From NCBI GenBank assembly GCA_937966115.1, contig CALCKX010000071.1, positions 1 to 48,605 of the forward strand: 48,605 nt of DNA. Direction: 5' to 3'. A model generated the notes under the pieces. That model worked only from the letters and a program-made list of their open reading frames with translations. It was not told the origin of the DNA and did no database searches. The translations under genes were made by a program, and so were the position numbers. Each line of letters opens with the position of its first letter. Positions within the stretch are counted from its first letter, which is position 1. Source of the DNA: an uncultured Chloracidobacterium sp. (GTDB lineage Bacteria; Acidobacteriota; Blastocatellia; Chloracidobacteriales; Chloracidobacteriaceae). This document shows positions 4,752-16,004 of this stretch, in pieces.

Positions 4752-5954
4752 TCACAAGCTCGCTCCGGGAAGCAGTCTCGCAATTGCCTGAAACGTTGCC
4801 GTCAGCCAATCGCCAAACTGCTCAGCGGGCAGATGCTCATCGTAGGAAAGATGGTAAATGACCCCGTTGGGCGTTGACTTAGACTGTCCGCCAAGGCTTT
4901 TCACGCGTTCCTCGCGCAGCAGCGGGGCTTCGGCAATTTCGTATAGGTCAACCGAGGTGATGAGTTCATAAACCGGCTTGCGCTGCAAGATGATTGCGAG
5001 CGGAAACGTTCGCGGCGCGCCCAAACAGCGAAAGGCGATGTCATAGCGGTGCATGAGGTGGTCTTCCTGGTTGCTATGCCCCTCGGCGACGCGAGCCTTT
5101 TTCGGATCGAGGCGCTGAATGAATTGCTGGATGGCTTTTTTGCGCTCGTTGAATAGCTTGAAATACTGCACGGCGGTGAGCCGCTTCATGGTGGGCGACG
5201 GCGGCGAGACGAGCGCTGGCGCGGCCGAGGGGGTTGGGCTGCAGGTCGGCGGCGGCGCGGTCGCCGCCTCGGGCGGCGGGGGCAAGCGCGCGCTGCTTTT
5301 CTCGCCCAAGTCGAGAATGAAGCCCAGGTCATCATCCGGCGACGCTGCCGGCGGCAATGGCGGCGGGTCGGCTGGAGCCGCCTGTCCCAACTGCACGATG
5401 GTGGCTGAGGGGTCGAGACGGGATGTGTCCGACTCCGGGATGGCTGTTGTCAATGGAGAGCCGCCATCGGCCAAAACAGAAGCGACGGTTGCGGCCGGCG
5501 ACTGCGCGTCCGCTTGAGCCTGACTCGGGGCGCCGCCTTCCGCAGGCGGGACAACCGCCGGCGGCGCGAGCGAGGGAGCGGCGAGCGGCGGAAGCGCCGA
5601 GGGCGGCACCACAATCGTCGGCGGAATAAGCAGGTCCAGCTCGGCGGCCGGCGCGTCGTTCCTGAAAGACTTGGCGGTCGGCGGGTCCTCGATGGAGAGC
5701 GCCTCCGCGACAAGCGGCGCGGGCGGCGGCGTTTCGCCCGCAGCGGCGCTCGTCTCAGCCAGCGCGGATGCCGGAAACTGCGGCGTAAACAGCTGCGCCC
5801 GCTCCTGCTCGCTCATTCTGACGGTTGGCTCGGCGTCCGCGGCGGCCAGCGGCGGACCGACCGCTTCCGGCGCGGGCAGGAGCGGCAGTCCGTGGTAGGG
5901 ACAGAACCGCTTGCCATCGTCCCATAGCGTTTCACACTGCGGACAAGCTTTCAT
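4752..5954 (-). CDS. Zinc-ribbon protein with long Pro/Ala linker, hypothetical
   Basis: A 400-residue protein in three parts. It begins with a short zinc-ribbon-like motif, CPQC followed by CPYHG (residues about 4-20). Then comes a very long low-complexity Pro/Ala/Ser-rich linker to about 250. The C-terminal domain of about 145 residues (from MKRLTAVQYF to the end) is well folded in appearance, with a charged helix (FNERKKAIQQFIQRLD) and beta-rich segments. I do not recognise this domain. Zinc-ribbon plus Pro-rich linker architectures occur in acidobacterial and myxobacterial regulatory proteins, but no kinase or receiver domain is present. The pseudouridine synthase follows directly and is probably co-transcribed. 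Confidence 0.75.
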   Translation of the reverse strand: MKACPQCETLWDDGKRFCPYHGLPLLPAPEAVGPPLAAADAEPTVRMSEQERAQLFTPQFPASALAETSAAAGETPPPAPLVAEALSIEDPPTAKSFRNDAPAAELDLLIPPTIVVPPSALPPLAAPSLAPPAVVPPAEGGAPSQAQADAQSPAATVASVLADGGSPLTTAIPESDTSRLDPSATIVQLGQAAPADPPPLPPAASPDDDLGFILDLGEKSSARLPPPPEAATAPPPTCSPTPSAAPALVSPPSPTMKRLTAVQYFKLFNERKKAIQQFIQRLDPKKARVAEGHSNQEDHLMHRYDIAFRCLGAPRTFPLAIILQRKPVYELITSVDLYEIAEAPLLREERVKSLGGQSKSTPNGVIYHLSYDEHLPAEQFGDWLTATFQAIARLLPGASL

Positions 5955-6029: not shown

Positions 6030-6554
6030 TCAGCGGGCCGGTATCCGCCCCAGCGTTGCGTCGAGCGGCGGATGATTCGGCACAAGGTCGCAGAGGTAAC
6101 GTTCGACGACTCGTCCGCCACCGTCAATCAAAAACTGCGCCGGCAGCGGCACGCCCAGGGCCGCGCCCGCGCCGTACCCCTTGAAAACCGCCCAGCCAGG
6201 GTCGCTCAGCAGCGGATACGGAAGAGCCAAATCCTCCGCGATGAGCCTTGACGTAGCGACATCCGTGCTCGTCACCACGACGACCTCCGCCCCCTTGGAC
6301 TGAAACTCGGCGTATCGTTCGCGCAACTCGACCAGTCGCGGGTAGCAGAACGGTCAGATAAAGCCGCGATCAACGATGCGCGTCAGGTAAAGCAAGCACC
6401 ACCGCGGCTCAACCGCCGATAGCGTGAACGACCGCCCCTGCGTGTCCGGCAGCGTGAAGTCGGGCGCGAGCTGACCGGCCTCGACCAGCGACCGACTTGG
6501 ATAGGGAATGAAATTGCCCTTGAACGGCAACTCTAGGATTTTGGCGATGTCCAT
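6030..6554 (-). CDS. Peroxiredoxin-like (AhpC/TSA, redoxin) selenoprotein candidate with in-frame UGA
   Basis: Read through one UGA, this is a 174-residue thioredoxin-fold redoxin. The N-terminal APDFTLPDTQGRSFTL is the AhpC/TSA signature. The strand before the active site, CLLYLTRIVDRGFI, leads into U-PFC, where UGA (6356-6354, residue 67) sits exactly where homologues have the first Cys of a CPFC/CxxC motif; the second Cys is 70. Helix RLVELRERYAEF, strand AEVVVVTSTD and PAQFLIDGGGRVV follow in the same frame, ending at a second UGA (6032-6030). Both halves are needed for the fold and no frameshift is present. A SECIS-like hairpin begins 2 bases after the internal UGA. The likely role is thiol/peroxide redox chemistry. 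The alternative is a nonsense pseudogene. The gene begins 28 bases after the stop of an unknown gene. Confidence 0.8.
6316..6352 (-). promoter_or_regulatory. SECIS-like hairpin after the internal UGA
   Basis: Counting from the base after the UGA, positions 2-6 (CGUUC) pair with 34-38 (GAACG). After an asymmetric internal loop, 14-19 (CGCGAC) pair with 27-32 (GUUGCG, including one G-U pair). The apical loop is UGGUCGA. The GGU of the loop falls 21-23 bases after the UGA. In E. coli fdhF, as I recall it, the SelB-recognised loop AGGUCU has its GGU at 19-21. A lower stem, a bulge and an upper stem with GGUC in the loop are what SelB-type recognition requires. The fold was worked out by eye. Confidence 0.7.
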
Positions 6555-7113: not shown

Positions 7114-7332
7114 AAACCCGCTAGGAATCCGCCTTGCCAAGAGCCGGCACTATAGCTCAAGCGCCCTGGCGCATGGAATCCGCTCGCTCGCCCTTTGAAC
7201 CGCCTTTGGCGCTGAACCCGCCCTTGGTCTTGCGCGCAAAGCGCCCGCGCGACAGCCCGCCCTAAACTTGTCTCTTTTCTGGCTGGACTTGAAGTATAGT
7301 TGACGAACTTCCCTGGATTGTCGAGCAAAGGC

Positions 7333-10300
7333 ATGCTGGCTTACGACTGCGCGCCGCCGGGCTACGTGATTTCGACTGAAGTCTATCGCAGCGAGCGGAC
7401 GCTGACGCTTCGGGCGCAGCGGACGGAGACGGGCGAGGCGGTCATCATCAAAACGACCACGGAAGTCATCCCGCCGCCGACGCTGACGCTGCGCTTTCAC
7501 CATGAGTGGTCGCTGCTGACGGCGCTGGCGGATCGGGCCGACGCGCGCCAGCGCATTGTGCGCGCCTATGACCTTGCCCGCGCGGGGCACCGCCCGGCGC
7601 TCATTTTGGAGGATTTCGGAGGGCAGGCGCTGCGTTACGCGGCGGCCTCCTACGCCGACCTGCCGCTTGCCGAGCGTCTGGATATCGCCATCGCCATTCT
7701 GGACGGGCTGGAGGCCGTCCATGCCGCCGGCCTGCTGCACAAGGATGTCAACCCGTCGAATGTCGTCCTCAACCGCGCCACCGGACAAGTCAAGCTCATA
7801 GATTTCAGCATCGCGGCGCGGGGTCGGCGCATCGCGGCTCAGCGCGGGGCGGACGAGACGTTTGAAGGCACGCTGGCTTACATCGCTCCGGAGCAAACCG
7901 GACGCCTGAGCGGCGCCATTGACGCCCGGGCCGATCTCTACTCATTCGGCGTTTTACTTTACGAGCTGCTGACCGGGGAGTTGCCGTTTCAGGCGAGCGA
8001 CGCGCTGGGAATGATCCACGCCCATTTGGCGCTTCCGCCGCCGGCGGCCCATCAGCGCGATCGGCGCGTGCCGCGGGCGCTGTCAGACATTACAGCCAAG
8101 CTGCTCGCCAAGTCGCCGGATGACCGCTATCAGACGGCCGCCGGCGCGCGCGCCGACCTCGCGGAGTGCCTGCGTCAACTGAGCGGCGGCGGCGCGCCGA
8201 CGGGGATCGCGCCGTTTCCATTGGGGCGGCGCGATGCCGCGCTCTTCGTCGTGCCCCAGCGGCTGTATGGCCGCGAGCGCGAAGTCGCGCTTCTGCGCGA
8301 GGCCTTTGAGCGCGCTTGTCAGTCTGGGCGCGAGATGGTTTTGGTCGCCGGGGCGTCAGGGATCGGGAAAACCGCGCTGATCGCCGAGCTGCACGCGCCC
8401 GTGACGGCGCGGCGCGGCTTCCTGGTCAGCGGAAAGCACGACCAACTGCGGGGCAATACTCCGTATTCGGCCATCAGCGCGGCGTTCCGGCAACTCGTCC
8501 GGCAAATCCTCGCGCAAAGCGACGCCGAGCTTGACGCCTGGCGAGCCGCGCTCTCCGAAGCGCTTAGCGCGTCCGCCGCCCTGCTGCTCCCGCTCATCCC
8601 GGAACTGGCGCTCCTGGTCGGCGATGTCGCCCTGGCGTCTGAAATCCCCGCTTTGGAGGCGCGGCATCGCTTTGAGCGGGCGGTTGAGGCGTTTCTCGGC
8701 GTCTTTACCGCGCGGCAGCGGCCGCTGGCGCTATTCTTGGACGATGCGCAGTGGGCCGACGCCGCCTCACTCGACCTCTTGTCGGCCTTGGCGCGCAGTC
8801 GACAAAGCTTCCAGATGCTGGTCATCCTGGCGTACCGCGATCAGGAAACGGCGGCCGGTCATCCGCTCTCGCTCGCGCTCGACGCCACCCGCAGCGCCGG
8901 CATGGCGATGACTTACGTGACGCTGTCGCCGCTCGATCTCGAGGGCGTTACGCAGCTCACGGCGGCAGCCATGGACAACGCGCCCGAAGCGCCGGCGGTA
9001 GCGAGCATCGTTTACCGCAAAACCGGCGGCAATCCGTTTTTCGCCCGCGAGCTACTGGAACGGCTCGCCGCCGACGGTCGGCTGACCTTTCAACCGGGCC
9101 GCGGCTGGAGCGCTGACCTGGAAGGCATCGCCGCCGCCGACCTGACAGATAACGTGGTGACGTTTCTGCTTGAGAAGCTGCATCGCTGCTCGCTGGATGC
9201 GCAGCGGCTCTTGCACGTGGCGGCCTGCTTTGGCCACGCTTTCGCCGCCGCGCAGGTCGCGGCGGCGGCCGAAACTGACTTGCCAAGCGCCCAGGCGGCG
9301 CTGGAAGCCGCCGCGGAAGCCAACCTGATCCTGAGCGAGGCGGCGCCCGGCCGCTTCCATTTCGTCCATGACCGGGTTCAGCAAGCGGCTTACGAGCTGG
9401 CGCCGGAAGACGCGCGGCAGGCGCTTCACTGGCGCATCGGGCGCAGCCTGCTTTCGGAATCGAAGTCGCGCGCCCCGGAACCCTCGACGACCAGCTTCGC
9501 CAGCCGCTTGTTCGATATCGCCAACCACCTCAACCGCGGTCGCCGCCAAGCGAGCGAAGCCGAGCGCAAAGAGCTGGCCCACCTCAACCTGTACGCCGGA
9601 CGCGCGGCTAAAACCGCGGCGGCGTTCGGCCCGGCGCTGGAATATCTGCGCATTGGCATCGAGCTGCTGCCCGCCGACGCCTGGTCAGCCAGTTACGATC
9701 TCACGCTTCGCCTCCACCTCGAAGCGGCCGAGGCGGCTTTTTTCAGCGCCAATCCGAGCATCGCCCAGGAAATCGCGCAAGCTGTTTTCAGCCGGGCGCG
9801 AGCGTTGCCGGATGCCCTGCCAGCCCACGAGATGGCGATCTTGGCCTACTCAGCGCAGTACCGCTTCCACGACGCGCTGGCGCACGCCCGCGCCGTCTTG
9901 CAGCGGCTTGGCATTGATCTGCCGGAGCATCCTTCCCCAACCGATATCGGCGCGGCCTGGAACCGCATCAAGTCGCGCCTGACCGCGCTTGACGCCGACG
10001 CCATCCTGGCGCTGCCCGAGATGAGCGACCCGCAGGCGCTCGCGGCGTCGCGCTTGCTTTATCGGATGTCCGTTCCAGCTTTCCTGAGCAACAGCGCCCT
10101 CTTCACGCTAATCGTTTTCTGGCGCATCGAGTTGACTCTCAAGCATGGCGTCAGCGGCTTGGCGGCAGCCTCCTTCGCGGCGCTGGGCGTGGTCGTCAGC
10201 GGCGGCTTCCAGGACCCAGGCCAAGGCTACGCTTTCGGCAACTTGGCGCGCCGCCTGCTGGATCGCCTGCCTTCCAGCGAAGGACGCGCCAGGACGCTGA

Positions 10301-12666
10301 TCTCGTACTACTTTTTCCTTCACATCTGGCGCGAGCCAGCGCGCACCGCCATCGAGCCGCTCCGCGCGGCGTACCGGGAGGGCCTTGAAGCCGGCGATCT
10401 CGAGTTCGCCTCGACCGCGCTCCTCGCTATCACTTGGATTGGCATCTTCATCGGTCAGCCGCTCGATGCGCTCGAGCGCGACGCCAAGGCCCACAGCGAC
10501 GCCATCCGAGCGCTATGCCAAGAGCGGAACTACCGAACCGTCGAGCTGTGCCTCGCTTACGTCCGCAATCTGCGCGTCGAGACTGACAATCCGCTCTGGA
10601 TCGCCTGGGGCGACAGCGAAGCGGATGATGCCGCCCTGGCGGCGACCGGCGACCAGGGAACGCTCGGCACGCTCGCCTATTTGCGCATGAAGCTGGCCTA
10701 TCTGTTTGGCGACTATCAGCGCGCCTATGAGCAATCCATCCTCTGCGAAAGCAACATGTCCGGCTTGCAGTCGTCCTGCCTGCAACCGAACGCGTATTTG
10801 TTCGGCGCGCTGGCCCGTCTGGCGCGGTTGCGGGCTGGAGACCTGGACGCGCAAGCCGCCGAAGCCATGTGGGCTTGGATAGACGGCATCCGCCCGCAAA
10901 TGGCGCGCTGGGCCGAGTTGTCTTCGGCGAACTACGCGCAGAAGCTGCACTTGCTCGATGCCGAAATCCAGTCCCTCCGCGGCGATGTCGGCGCGGCGCT
11001 GGAAGCCTATGACCGGGCGATTGCCTTAGCGCGCGAGAACGGCTTCATCCACGAGGAAGCGCTGGCCAACGAGCGCGCCGCCCGATACTTCCTTGACCAG
11101 GGGCGGAGCAAGATCGCGCGCGCCTATGCCGCCGACGCGCGGCGGGCTTACGAGCGGTGGGGCGCAACCGAGAAGGCGCGGCGCCTCGCCGAGCAATTCG
11201 GCGCGCCGCCGAGCGAGAGCGACTCGCTGCGCTCGACGGGCGCGCACTCGACGCTGAAGATCATCGGCGCGACCGAGAAGGCGACGACCGGCAGCGGGGG
11301 CTTTGACTTTGCCAGCGTGATGAAGGCGGCGCGCGCGCTGGCCGGCGAAATCGTGCAGGAGCGGCTTCTGGACACCCTGCTGCGGATTGCGCTGGAAAAC
11401 GCCGGCGCGACGCGCGGGGCGCTCGCCCTGCCGCGCGAGGATGGGGCGTGGTATGTCGAGGCGGAACGCGATCTGCGCGACCCGGGCGCCGCGACGCAAC
11501 CGCCGCGCCCGCTTGACCAAGTCGCCTCCCTGCCGCTGAGCGTCATCAAGTTCGCGCTGCGAACGGGCGAGAGCGTTTTGCTGGCGGACGCCACCGAATC
11601 GCCCGACTTCGGGCGAGACGCCTACGTTCAAGCGGCGGGGCTGCGGTCGGTCATCTGCCTTCCGGCCCGACATCGGGGGCAGGTGCGCGCCATCGTGTAC
11701 CTGGAAAACCAAGCCGTGGCCAATGTCTTCACCCCGCAACGGCGCGAGGCGCTGACTATCCTTGCCGCGCAGGCGGCGGTTTCCCTCGAAAACACGCGCC
11801 TTTACGCCAGTCTGGAAGAGAAAGTGCGGCAGCGGACGGAGGAATTGGCTGAGAAAAACCGCCAGCTGGAGCAAACCGCCATCGAAATCCTGGATGGGCT
11901 GCGCTATGCCGAGCGGATTCAGCGCGCCATCCTGCCGACCGCCGAAGAGCTTGCTAAGGCCTTTGCCGAGCATTTCATCCTCTGGCGGCCGCGCGGCATC
12001 GTTTCCGGCGACTTTTACTGGCTGCGCTACTGGCCCGGGAAAGGCCGCGAAACCCGCTGGCTGGCCGTGGCCGATTGCACCGGCCACGGCGTTCCCGGCG
12101 CGCTCATGGCCATGATTGGCAATGAGCTGCTCAACCAGATCGTCATCGAGCGCGGGATTGAGTCGCCGGCGGCGATTCTCGACGCGCTCGACGCCGGCAT
12201 CCGCGCCGCCCTGCGCTACGACGCCCGCCACGACGGGCAGCGGGACGGCATGGACATCGCCCTGTGCCGGCTTGACGCGGATGGCGCGGTGACGTTCGCG
12301 GGCGCCGGGCGTCCGCTCTACGTCATCGAAGGCGGCGCGTTGACCGAAGTCCGGGGCGACCGGGGCGGGATCGGCAGCCGCGCCAAGCAGCGGGGCTTCA
12401 CCGAGCGCCAGCTCCACTTGCCGCCAGACGCCCTGCTTTACCTAAGCTCGGATGGCTTCGCCGACCAAAACGACCCGCTCGGCCGACGCTACGGCTCGTC
12501 CGCCCTGAAGCGGACGCTGCAAGCGCTGTCCCAGCAGCCGCTGCCGGTGCAACGCCAACGGCTGGAGCAAAGCCTGGACCGACACCAGGGGGGCGAGCCG
12601 CAACGCGACGACGTGACGCTGGTCGGGATTCGCCTCCAGTCCAGCGCGCCGCCCGAGAAGATGTAG
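7333..12666 (+). CDS. Giant Ser/Thr kinase-like / AAA ATPase / GAF / SpoIIE-type phosphatase fusion
   Basis: A 1777-residue cytosolic signalling protein. Residues about 10-275 form a protein-kinase fold with ATP-site VIIK, a catalytic loop HKDVNPSN (HRD changed to HKD) and a magnesium loop DFS in place of DFG, then APE (IAPEQ). A STAND/MalT-like AAA ATPase follows, with Walker A GASGIGKT near 340 and Walker B LFLDDAQWAD near 468. A long helical repeat region runs to about 1300. A GAF domain spans about 1322-1489, followed by a coiled coil (EEKVRQRTEELAEKNRQLEQ). A PP2C/SpoIIE phosphatase occupies about 1544-1775, with SGDFYW, ADCTGHGVPGALM and LSSDGFADQND. Kinase-AAA-GAF proteins usually end in a histidine kinase; here the end is a phosphatase. 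I chose ATG 7333 over the upstream TTG at 7300. It stands alone. Confidence 0.9.
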   Translation: MLAYDCAPPGYVISTEVYRSERTLTLRAQRTETGEAVIIKTTTEVIPPPTLTLRFHHEWSLLTALADRADARQRIVRAYDLARAGHRPALILEDFGGQALRYAAASYADLPLAERLDIAIAILDGLEAVHAAGLLHKDVNPSNVVLNRATGQVKLIDFSIAARGRRIAAQRGADETFEGTLAYIAPEQTGRLSGAIDARADLYSFGVLLYELLTGELPFQASDALGMIHAHLALPPPAAHQRDRRVPRALSDITAKLLAKSPDDRYQTAAGARADLAECLRQLSGGGAPTGIAPFPLGRRDAALFVVPQRLYGREREVALLREAFERACQSGREMVLVAGASGIGKTALIAELHAPVTARRGFLVSGKHDQLRGNTPYSAISAAFRQLVRQILAQSDAELDAWRAALSEALSASAALLLPLIPELALLVGDVALASEIPALEARHRFERAVEAFLGVFTARQRPLALFLDDAQWADAASLDLLSALARSRQSFQMLVILAYRDQETAAGHPLSLALDATRSAGMAMTYVTLSPLDLEGVTQLTAAAMDNAPEAPAVASIVYRKTGGNPFFARELLERLAADGRLTFQPGRGWSADLEGIAAADLTDNVVTFLLEKLHRCSLDAQRLLHVAACFGHAFAAAQVAAAAETDLPSAQAALEAAAEANLILSEAAPGRFHFVHDRVQQAAYELAPEDARQALHWRIGRSLLSESKSRAPEPSTTSFASRLFDIANHLNRGRRQASEAERKELAHLNLYAGRAAKTAAAFGPALEYLRIGIELLPADAWSASYDLTLRLHLEAAEAAFFSANPSIAQEIAQAVFSRARALPDALPAHEMAILAYSAQYRFHDALAHARAVLQRLGIDLPEHPSPTDIGAAWNRIKSRLTALDADAILALPEMSDPQALAASRLLYRMSVPAFLSNSALFTLIVFWRIELTLKHGVSGLAAASFAALGVVVSGGFQDPGQGYAFGNLARRLLDRLPSSEGRARTLISYYFFLHIWREPARTAIEPLRAAYREGLEAGDLEFASTALLAITWIGIFIGQPLDALERDAKAHSDAIRALCQERNYRTVELCLAYVRNLRVETDNPLWIAWGDSEADDAALAATGDQGTLGTLAYLRMKLAYLFGDYQRAYEQSILCESNMSGLQSSCLQPNAYLFGALARLARLRAGDLDAQAAEAMWAWIDGIRPQMARWAELSSANYAQKLHLLDAEIQSLRGDVGAALEAYDRAIALARENGFIHEEALANERAARYFLDQGRSKIARAYAADARRAYERWGATEKARRLAEQFGAPPSESDSLRSTGAHSTLKIIGATEKATTGSGGFDFASVMKAARALAGEIVQERLLDTLLRIALENAGATRGALALPREDGAWYVEAERDLRDPGAATQPPRPLDQVASLPLSVIKFALRTGESVLLADATESPDFGRDAYVQAAGLRSVICLPARHRGQVRAIVYLENQAVANVFTPQRREALTILAAQAAVSLENTRLYASLEEKVRQRTEELAEKNRQLEQTAIEILDGLRYAERIQRAILPTAEELAKAFAEHFILWRPRGIVSGDFYWLRYWPGKGRETRWLAVADCTGHGVPGALMAMIGNELLNQIVIERGIESPAAILDALDAGIRAALRYDARHDGQRDGMDIALCRLDADGAVTFAGAGRPLYVIEGGALTEVRGDRGGIGSRAKQRGFTERQLHLPPDALLYLSSDGFADQNDPLGRRYGSSALKRTLQALSQQPLPVQRQRLEQSLDRHQGGEPQRDDVTLVGIRLQSSAPPEKM

Positions 12667-12711
12667 CCGGCGAGGAGCAAGCTGCGGAGCGGGCCATCGC
12701 CGGCGGGCGCG

Positions 12712-14607
12712 CTATGGCGCCGCCGCCCGGCGCGCCGGGCTTGCGGCGCGGCTTTCAGCGCGCGGCGGCGCGGCGCGATACTGCAACTCGTAAAGCCGGC
12801 GATAGATGCCGTCCGGGCGGGCCACCAGCTCCTGGTGCGTTCCCATCTCGCGGACCTCGCCCCGATGCAGGACAATGATGCAATCCGCCCGGCGGACGGT
12901 GGACAGCCGATGCGCAATCACCACGCACGTTCGCCCAACCAGCGCCCGCTCTATGGCCGACTGGATAATGGCTTCGGTTTCGCTGTCAATGCTGGCGGTG
13001 GCCTCATCCAGAATGAGAATCCGCGGATTGAACGCCAGCGCCCGCGCCAAGGCGATGAGCTGTTTCTGCCCAACGGACAAGGTCGCGCCCCGCTCCTTCA
13101 CCTCGGCCTGATAGCCGCCGGGCAAGCGCCGGATGAAGTCATCAGCCTGCGCCTCGCGGGCGGCCGCCGCCAGGCGCTCGTCGCTGATGTCGGTCGCCCC
13201 GAGCCGGAGGTTGTCGGCGATCGTTCCGGCAAAGAGCGTCGGATCCTGCAGGACGACGCCGAAGTAGCGCCGCAGCTCGCGGAGGTCGAATTCCCGAACG
13301 TCCACGCCGTCAATCAAAATTTGCCCGCGCTGCGCATCGTAAAAGCGCATGAGCAAGTTGCTGATGGAGGTTTTCCCGGCCCCCGTCGCGCCGACCAGCG
13401 CCACGGTTTGCCCCGGCGCGACGCGGAACGAAACATCCCGCAACACCCAGTTTTCGTCCCTGTAGGCGAACCACACCCGCCGAAACTCGATTTCGCCGCG
13501 CCGAACGGGCGGCGCTTTCGGCGCGGGCGGCGATGTGATCACCAACGGCTCATCCAGCATTTTGAAGACCCGCTCCGCCGCCGCCATCGCCGCTTGCAGG
13601 ATGTTATATTTCTCGCTGATGTCCTGAATTGGCTCGTAAAAGCGCTGCATCGCCTGGATAAAGAAGATCAGCGCGCCGAGCGAGAGCGCGCCGGTCAGCG
13701 CCTGCCCGCCGCCATGCCAGATGACCAGCGCCACGCCGATATTGCTGACAAAGCCAATTGCCGGATAGAATACGGCGTAATAGAAGATGGTCTCAATGTT
13801 GATGCGGCGGTGCGCGTCGTTGATGACGTCAAAAGCGCGGCGCTCGCGCTCCTCGCGGTTAAACAACTGCACCGTCGCCATCCCCGACAGATGCTCTTGC
13901 AAAAAGGCGTTGATGCGGGCGAGCCGGGTTCGGACCTCGCGATAAGTTCGGGTGGCATTGACCCGAAACCAGGCGGTCACCGCCGTCAGCAATGGCACGA
14001 CCACGAGACTCGCGAGCGCCAACCGCCAGTTGACCAAAAAAAGAAAGCCGAGAATGCCGACGAGCACGACGACATCGCTCAACAGCGTCACGAAGCCCGA
14101 CGTGAACAGCTCGTTGAGCGCGTCCACGTCGGAGGTCAGGCGCGTCGTCATGCGGCCGATGGGCGTCCGGTCGTAGTAGCTGAGCGGCAGCCGCTGGGAC
14201 TTGGCGAACAGCTCGCGCCGCAGGTCGCGCATCACGAACTGCCCCGTCCCGTTGAGCAGGAGGGTTTGCCAGTAGGTCAGCCCGAAGACAACCAGCATCA
14301 GCCCCAGATAAAGGCCGCCGATCAGGCTCACGCCGTCCAGCGGCGATAGCCGCCAGCCAAGACCTTCAAATCCGGCGGACAGCAGGCGCGGAAAGATTCC
14401 TAGCCGGGCGGGGTCCGGCGGCAGCAGAAACAGGTCCACCGCCGCCATGGTCAGGTTGAGCGCCAGCAGCTCGAAGCCGGCCGTGAAGGCGATGAGCGGG
14501 AGGGCGAGCGCCACCCGCCCGCGATAGGGCTTGAGATAGGTCAATAGTCGCTTGGCCAGGCGGTGATCGTAAGCTTTGCCAAGCGCCTCGTCGTCCGGCT
14601 GACTCAT
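12712..14607 (-). CDS. ABC exporter, fused permease and ATPase (MsbA/MdlB type)
   Basis: A 631-residue half-transporter of the ABCB/MsbA family that would act as a dimer to export a lipid, peptide or drug. The transmembrane domain of six predicted helices spans about 30-340, including ALPLIAFTAGFELLAL and VVVLVGILGFLFLVNW. The nucleotide-binding domain has Walker A GATGAGKTS (near 405), Q-loop VVLQDPTLF, the signature LSVGQKQ, Walker B ILILDEATA (near 530) and the switch His in VIAHRLSTV. The short C-terminal tail is Arg/Ala-rich. Only one half is present here, so it is probably a homodimer. It is divergent from prfB. The substrate cannot be inferred. Confidence 0.9.
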   Translation of the reverse strand: MSQPDDEALGKAYDHRLAKRLLTYLKPYRGRVALALPLIAFTAGFELLALNLTMAAVDLFLLPPDPARLGIFPRLLSAGFEGLGWRLSPLDGVSLIGGLYLGLMLVVFGLTYWQTLLLNGTGQFVMRDLRRELFAKSQRLPLSYYDRTPIGRMTTRLTSDVDALNELFTSGFVTLLSDVVVLVGILGFLFLVNWRLALASLVVVPLLTAVTAWFRVNATRTYREVRTRLARINAFLQEHLSGMATVQLFNREERERRAFDVINDAHRRINIETIFYYAVFYPAIGFVSNIGVALVIWHGGGQALTGALSLGALIFFIQAMQRFYEPIQDISEKYNILQAAMAAAERVFKMLDEPLVITSPPAPKAPPVRRGEIEFRRVWFAYRDENWVLRDVSFRVAPGQTVALVGATGAGKTSISNLLMRFYDAQRGQILIDGVDVREFDLRELRRYFGVVLQDPTLFAGTIADNLRLGATDISDERLAAAAREAQADDFIRRLPGGYQAEVKERGATLSVGQKQLIALARALAFNPRILILDEATASIDSETEAIIQSAIERALVGRTCVVIAHRLSTVRRADCIIVLHRGEVREMGTHQELVARPDGIYRRLYELQYRAAPPRAESRAASPARRAAAP

Positions 14608-14872: not shown

Positions 14873-16004
14873 ATGCCGGATTTGATTGAGCTTCGCCAAG
14901 CTTACAATGCCCTTCTCGAGCGGATTACGCGCCTGCGGAGGTTTCTTTGACCCCGACGGCAAGCGTCCGCGCCTGGAAAGGCTTGAAGCCCGCGTCGCTG
15001 ACCCGCGCTTCTGGGATGACCAGGAGCAAGCCCAGAAGGCGCTTCGGGAGCGGCGGCGACTGTCCGACGCCATCGAGCTGGCGGCGTTTTACGACCGCGA
15101 GCTGGCTGACTTGGAGGTGCTGCTCGAGTTCGCCGCGGCGGACGCCGCCTCGCTCGCCGAGCTGGAGCAGCGCCTGAGCGCCCTGCGCGCCAAGGCGGAA
15201 GCGGATGAGGTTCAGATGTTGTTGTCGGGGCCAAACGACGCCAACAACGCTATCGTCCGCGTGCAGGCGGGCGCCGGCGGCACGGATGCGCAGGATTGGG
15301 CCGAGATGCTCCTGCGGATGTATCTGCGCTGGTGCGAGCGGCGGGGGTTCAAAGCCAGCGTCCTCGACCTGCAGCCGGGCAAGGAAGCTGGCATCGCTTC
15401 CGCGGAATTCACGGTTGAGGGCGACTATGCCTACGGCTTGCTTTCGTGCGAAAGCGGCGTGCATCGGCTGGTGCGAATTTCGCCGTTTTCTTCGGCCGGC
15501 ACGCGCGAAACCAGCTTCGCCTCGATTTTCGTGACGCCTGAAATCGAAGACGACATCGCGATTGAAATCAACGAGAAGGACTTGCGCGTGGATACTTATC
15601 GCTCATCAGGCGCGGGCGGACAGCACGTCAACGTCACCGACTCGGCCATTCGCATCACGCACCTGCCGACCGGCATCATCGTATCGTGCCAAAATCAGCG
15701 GTCGCAGCACCAAAACCGCGAGGTGGCGATGAAGGTGCTCAAGTCGCGGCTCTATGAAATGGAGCTTGAGCGGCGGCGGGCGGAAAGCGCCAAGCTGGAA
15801 GCCTCCAAGCGCGACATCTCCTTTGGTTCCCAAATTCGCAATTACGTGCTACACCCATACCGACTCGTCAAGGACGCTCGCACCAAGCTGGAGCGCAGCG
15901 ACGTGGAGAACGTTCTAGACGGCGAGCTAGACGATTTCATTCAAGCCTATCTTGTCGCCAAGAGTCGTCAGCCAGACGGCGTGACGGCCGGCGATGACGC
16001 CTAA
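14873..16004 (+). CDS. prfB: Peptide chain release factor 2 with programmed +1 frameshift
   Basis: RF2 recognises UGA and UAA stop codons and triggers peptidyl-tRNA hydrolysis. It starts at ATG 14873 and reads 25 codons (MPDLIELRQAY...RRFL) to an in-frame TGA at 14948. Translation must then slip +1 on CTT (14945-14947), skip T14948 and resume at GAC 14949 to give a 376-residue product. The stop-recognition tripeptide SPF (RISPFSSAGTR) and the catalytic GGQ (GAGGQHVN) are both in the second frame. An ORF starting at 14886 in the second frame lacks the true N-terminus. The frameshift is autoregulatory in bacteria: low RF2 favours slippage. ftsK starts 40 bases downstream, so the two may be co-transcribed. 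Confidence 0.95.
14937..14950 (+). promoter_or_regulatory. prfB: prfB programmed frameshift signal
   Basis: GGAGG at 14937-14941 acts as an internal Shine-Dalgarno, three bases (TTT) before the slippery CTT, followed by TGA and C. This has the geometry of the classical prfB site (SD, 3 bases, CTT TGA C). The first frame ends at the TGA and the second frame contains the SPF and GGQ motifs. Confidence 0.93.

Follow-up and report, generated by a model that had tools for sequence, protein, structure and literature searches.

Bacterial selenoproteins of the peroxiredoxin (Prx)-like kind, in which a UxxC motif takes the place of TxxU, have been described several times. The accessible part of PMC1088965 reports 22 such Sargasso Sea sequences, filed under COG0450; that of PMC1794560 lists eight genes for a 'Prx-like thiol:disulfide oxidoreductase' and credits Acidobacteria with three families and four selenoproteins; that of PMC2398784 gives 225 sequences of 'Prx-like 1' (pfam00578, UxxC); and that of PMC13188914 includes, in its table 1, Prx-like UxxC selenoproteins assigned to PF00578. 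The statement in a preliminary description of the present locus that such proteins are known in bacteria thus agrees with the accessible text of three of these sources (PMC1088965, PMC2398784 and PMC13188914).

The proposed read-through gene and its conservation

The DNA analysed here (48,605 nucleotides, hereafter the window) belongs to a draft genome (2.80 Mb, 151 contigs, completeness 85.2%) of the genus Chloracidobacterium, whose members are phototrophs. On its minus strand, positions 6554-6030 form a read-through frame in a single phase, running from the ATG at 6554 through 174 codons to a terminal TGA at codon 175, and the only other stop within it is the TGA of codon 67 (6354..6356). 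The preliminary description had joined two same-phase frames, 6554-6354 and 6326-6030, into one redoxin with the UGA as its sole interruption, and this arrangement is borne out by the frame; the 6326 of the second is simply the first listed TTG start past the UGA, the frame being open from 6353. The read-through product matches PF00578 (AhpC-TSA) over residues 27-151 (E 2.7e-23, 82.7 bits, cut-off 26) and PF08534 (Redoxin) over residues 26-159 (E 8.1e-15), with the UGA inside both matches. The sequence around the UGA reads FI-U-PFC-YPRLVELR, which puts the UGA, as had been claimed, at the first Cys of a CxxC motif and makes codon 70 (6345..6347) the putative resolving Cys of UPFC. The product very probably belongs to the known Prx-like UxxC selenoproteins (PF00578).

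Two genes, both on the minus strand of the window, flank it in all seven genus genomes: upstream, one for a DUF4760 protein (PF15956; 6583..7053; 87-92% identity in the other six), and downstream, one for a protein rich in Pro and Ala whose N-terminus carries a C-x2-C...C-x2-H stretch (4752..5954; 55-66% identity in the other six), for which a Pfam search gave no match. Elsewhere in the window, a plus-strand frame of 1788 amino acids at 7300-12666 appears, as judged by eye, to be Ser/Thr kinase-like with ATPase, GAF and phosphatase-like parts. At 14873-16004 (plus strand) lies a gene that we take to be prfB (RF2), in which 25 codons run from an ATG at 14873 to CTT, a TGA follows at 14948-14950 and the main frame continues in +1, with CGGAGG just 5'; the arrangement resembles the classic programmed frameshift and would put another recoded UGA less than 9 kb from the proposed selenocysteine (Sec) UGA.

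A single orthologue occurs in each of the seven genus genomes searched (E 8.9e-117 to 1.9e-96), and every copy has a single inner TGA. This TGA is codon 67 (window numbering) of a U-P-F-C motif with the same flanking residues in every case, nearby codons varying at their third positions. The other six orthologues share 82-91% identity with the protein of the window, and at this distance the retention of TGA in all seven is more than chance. Codon differences are mostly synonymous on both sides of the TGA in all 21 genus pairs (between the window and genome G005, 26 synonymous and 7 not on the 5' side; 46 and 15 on the 3' side), and, judged from these comparisons, the stretch 3' of the UGA is under purifying selection; codons 68-76 are invariant at the protein level in all seven. 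Outside the genus no match of orthologue grade was found, the best E value being 1.5e-16 among 51 non-genus genomes and 6.4e-19 in a 297-genome phylum sample (threshold E 1e-12), and plasmids gave no homologue of the protein at E 1e-8.

Homologues were sampled as 56 loci (30 plus 26 new), not as all matches. Ten were dropped from the tree and the hairpin counts: eight represent the same places as kept loci, and the other two (L098, L100) are TxxC/SxxC rows of PrxQ type from other genomes. The 39 homologues from beyond the genus in the tree comprise 13 distinct places with UGA at the codon-67 position, four with Cys there (L085, L092, L096 and L031, among which CPYC occurs twice and CPFC and CPSC once each) and 22 of the T/SxxC PrxQ type; Trp occurs at this position in none of the homologues examined. 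These are the residues that the preliminary description had expected of homologues at position 67, Cys or Sec, beside the 22 T/SxxC rows. In three UGA loci (L089, L091, L097) the aligner displaced the UGA by three columns next to a gap; since P-x-C directly follows it, we counted it at the shared position. The 13 UGA-bearing loci outside the genus are acidobacterial Prx-like genes (L028, L029, L030, L036, L084, L086, L089, L091, L094, L097, L103, L104, L107), and the phylum sample held more inner-TGA matches beyond those loci.

The 46-row tree unites the 22 T/SxxC rows in one group (100/99) and the seven genus rows in a separate one (100/99), with the UGA and CxxC rows interleaved outside both. 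As far as the aligned sequences go, the genus protein is therefore a clade of its own among its relatives; its placement beside L029, L030 and L104, on long branches, is unsupported (83/38).

A conserved hairpin 3' of the UGA

Across the seven genomes, all six codons from 72 to 77 are free of synonymous change. The background outside this block is 10 identical codons among 112 that are degenerate and invariant in amino acid, and the longest other run of frozen codons is two; with that rate taken as independent, a frozen block of this kind has a probability of about 5e-7, a figure for a block that was picked after looking. The frozen codons coincide with a hairpin, CGCGACU-GGUCG-AGUUGCG (6322..6340, minus strand), a putative bacterial SECIS element (bSECIS) whose 7-bp stem begins 13 nt past the UGA and whose 5-nt loop, GGUCG, has G first and lies 20 nt from the UGA. 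All seven pairs are formed in all seven genus sequences. The 23-nt stretch 6322-6344 folds with -8.9 kcal/mol (z -2.46; 3 of 200 shuffles equal or better). In the accessible text of PMC13188914, the bSECIS model sets the loop at 3-9 nt with G in its first two positions, the stem at 4-16 bp, the distance between UGA and loop at 16-37 nt and the minimum free energy at -7.5 or lower, and the hairpin fits these limits in loop, stem, loop sequence, spacing and energy.

The signal is weaker in a 46-nt context, where four folded sequences gave z scores of -1.23, -1.06, -1.85 and -0.19 and were equalled or bettered by 24, 32, 12 and 80 of 200 shuffles, respectively; in the last of these, from G005, the best fold differs from the hairpin. 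When 52 nt past the UGA were folded, the inner 6-7 bp were present in the best fold of all seven genus sequences.

The hairpin is invariant within the genus, and the covariation signal comes from the distant homologues alone. In an alignment of 19 of the 20 UGA sequences (L020 and L021 being identical there), the genus register pairs in 78.2% of cells, and none of six slid registers pairs in more than 42.1%. Cells changed on both sides number 10 against 4.2 in shuffles, a count that none of 500 shuffles reached. Over the same 19 sequences, two other measures are unremarkable: how many pairs show double changes (100 of 500 shuffles as high) and how many pair types occur (319 of 500). Twelve of the 19 lack the outermost pair and seven lack pair 22-30, and a few homologues pair better with the register moved by one or two. 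In several of the 13 distant UGA genes, the fold suggests a hairpin 3' of the UGA. At the gathering threshold, Rfam returned nothing in the window; to our knowledge Rfam has no general bSECIS model, so this result does not bear on the hairpin.

Sec machinery and the reading of the UGA

The preliminary description had pointed to the Sec genes as a check on its proposal, and three of the four were found in the draft: selA (512.3 bits, cut-off 267.9), selD (E 1.2e-114, 382.6 bits, cut-off 125) and tRNA-Sec (64.7 bits, gathering score 47), to which ARAGORN assigned the anticodon tca (UCA), the same as in all six congeners. The fourth, selB, gave no match over 242.25 bits in this 85%-complete draft of the window's genome. 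It exceeds the cut-off in all six congeners and in three of three family relatives, as do selA, selD and tRNA-Sec in each of the nine.

In the nearest relative (G002), selB lies at about 11879-13765 of locus L115, and the window's draft lacks the L115 sequence between about 6046 and 13856, short weak matches apart. At the left edge of the missing block the match stops at base 1 of contig C80, and at the right edge it resumes in contig C70 in an order reversed relative to that contig's own continuation. Positions 392-2707 of L114 (G000:C70), which correspond to L115 13857-16182, are inverted relative to the right flank and adjoin the expected selB site; this may be either a real inversion with respect to G002 or an assembly fault. 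Since the UGA and the hairpin are intact beside selA, selD and tRNA-Sec, selB is likelier to be missing through an assembly gap, loss of the gene in this strain being the less likely alternative.

Given the conserved UGA, the frozen hairpin and the presence of selA, selD and tRNA-Sec, the candidate selenoprotein of the preliminary description has held up, and UGA-67 almost certainly encodes Sec. We propose that, at UGA-67, SelB bound to Sec-tRNA(UCA) and to the downstream hairpin would insert selenocysteine, and that termination by RF2 would thereby be averted.

Two other readings of the UGA were weighed against this one. In the first, a TGC or TGT would have mutated to TGA or been misread as it, leaving a dead or truncated redoxin. 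A single base does separate TGA from a Cys codon, and selB was not found in the window's draft, but TGA stands in all seven assemblies, three of which are two-contig genomes of 99-100% completeness, the stretch 3' of it is under purifying selection, and the lack of synonymous change coincides exactly with the hairpin. We consider this reading extremely improbable and, with TGA conserved in seven of seven, reject it for the genus; the sequencing correction of TGA to TGC for which the preliminary description had allowed is excluded in practice because the seven assemblies agree. Hardly more credible is a selenium-free product, whether by decoding of UGA as Trp, by chance near-cognate decoding, or by re-initiation of the C-terminal half at TTG 6326. 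Such a start exists, and the codon is UGA in all seven genomes, never UAA or UAG, as Trp read-through would have it. Against these routes, codons 68-76, which lie 5' of the TTG, are invariant at the protein level in all seven; the distant homologues put Cys at this position in L085, L092, L096 and L031 and Trp in none of those examined, on which grounds we reject Trp or non-specific read-through; and the genome carries selA, selD and tRNA-Sec genes. The explanation that best covers the whole is, with very high confidence, a 174-residue selenoprotein of Prx fold, into which Sec would be inserted by way of SelB and the hairpin and in which Cys70 would be the partner of Sec.

It may further be asked how much of the genus's Sec machinery serves this one protein. 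SelD matches lack an inner stop in all ten genomes, so that SelD looks, by sequence, like the non-Sec form; no formate dehydrogenase alpha match reaches the cut-off in the seven genus genomes, and none of the matches listed has an inner stop; and the protein's other matches in these genomes number 30, the 16 listed having no inner stop either. These are pointers to a main or only selenoprotein. We nevertheless regard it as doubtful that the protein both represents a new subfamily specific to Chloracidobacterium and accounts mainly, or perhaps alone, for the retention of the four-gene Sec machinery in the genus.

Predicted chemistry and relation to known families

For the structural analysis, six of the seven genus sequences (L021 was left out as near-identical to L020) were aligned with 17 U/CxxC homologues from Acidobacteria, giving 23 rows that include none of the 22 T/SxxC rows. 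The genus protein shares 30-42% identity with the 17 relatives, and its residues 1-22 lie outside most of their BLAST-cut stretches. Invariant in this alignment, whose rows were picked for U/CxxC, are P31, L35, residue 67, C70 and D118. A structure predicted from the 23 sequences (pLDDT 83.5, pTM 0.82) was used in place of an earlier, poor prediction from seven (pLDDT 61.4). In the model, U67 comes just ahead of helix 70-79, within a stretch of lower pLDDT (around residues 61-70, mean 62). Foldseek ranked the ResA thiol-disulfide oxidoreductase first (E 1.1e-12), with AhpE and other peroxiredoxins among the best matches; the ResA matches have TM scores by query length of 0.65-0.70 among the rows listed.

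The classical Thr of peroxiredoxins is absent: U, not Thr, stands three residues before the conserved Cys in seven of seven (U-P-F-C), and with U67 itself in the catalytic role, the corresponding position, residue 64, holds Gly. U67 is thus at the first-Cys position of CxxC and not at the catalytic Cys of TxxC, which favours disulfide exchange or thiol-dependent peroxide reduction via a selenenylsulfide. To call the protein a peroxiredoxin is therefore loose.

A true selenoprotein acting as a Prx-type peroxidase instead of a thiol-disulfide oxidoreductase is possible, though we think it unlikely. It would accord with the AhpC-TSA and Redoxin matches, with top PDB folds that include AhpE, Bcp, PrxQ and 2-Cys Prx, with a sequence-profile search of the PDB that puts a peroxiredoxin-like protein first (3.3e-11) and ResA next (5.9e-11), and with the alignment of Cys70 to the Prx catalytic Cys and of U67 to the Thr of TPxC rows. 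Against it are the missing Thr of TxxC, the separation of the genus clade from the single T/SxxC group, and the ResA CxxC proteins that come first in both NCBIfam and Foldseek. On balance the chemistry is probably of the oxidoreductase type and not that of a classical peroxiredoxin. In the oxidoreductase reading that we prefer, Sec would occupy the first-Cys position of a thioredoxin-type CxxC, right before the helix, with Cys70 as its partner, in a thioredoxin-like enzyme, either a thiol-disulfide oxidoreductase or a thiol-dependent peroxide reductase. Its Sec selenolate would attack a substrate disulfide or peroxide, Cys70 would resolve the Sec intermediate to give a selenenylsulfide, and the latter may then be reduced by a donor of thioredoxin or glutathione type.

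A literature search, judged by titles or the starts of abstracts, found no paper on a Chloracidobacterium selenoprotein, and automatic databases such as RefSeq may carry the protein. The locus adds a genus-wide selenoprotein to this lineage and, with its signature at synonymous sites, a clean example of a natural bSECIS; the understanding of the Sec insertion mechanism is unchanged. Gene callers that treat UGA as a stop end the protein at residue 66, so that a redox enzyme present in all seven genus genomes searched could be annotated in pieces or missed.

With the known Prx-like UxxC selenoproteins, as the accessible parts of the sources present them, the genus protein shares the Pfam family, UxxC in place of TxxU, the existence of Cys homologues and a SECIS position right after the UGA; it is diverged, at the identities given above to 17 acidobacterial relatives. 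The proteins of the classical Sec-peroxiredoxin group (PxxxTxxU; PrxU, NF040737) have the same AhpC-TSA fold, but Sec here is at the T position and not the C position, and the PrxU model scores 28.1 bits at best against a cut-off of 270. The SelL-related model NF040769 is the second best NCBIfam match in all three proteins scanned, with 35.6, 37.2 and 43.1 bits against a cut-off of 120. The motif of SelL is UxxU, which is absent from the genus protein. ResA resembles it in fold and in the position of CxxC, and its CxxC model is the best NCBIfam match; that score does not exceed 44.5 bits, the cut-off of NF002854 being 170, and, unlike ResA, the genus protein has no obvious signal or membrane segment at its N-terminus, as judged by eye. 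Membership in the PrxU, PrxQ, ResA and SelL-related NCBIfam families was rejected, all scores lying far below the cut-offs, and it is the described Prx-like UxxC selenoproteins of PF00578 that the genus protein most probably joins.
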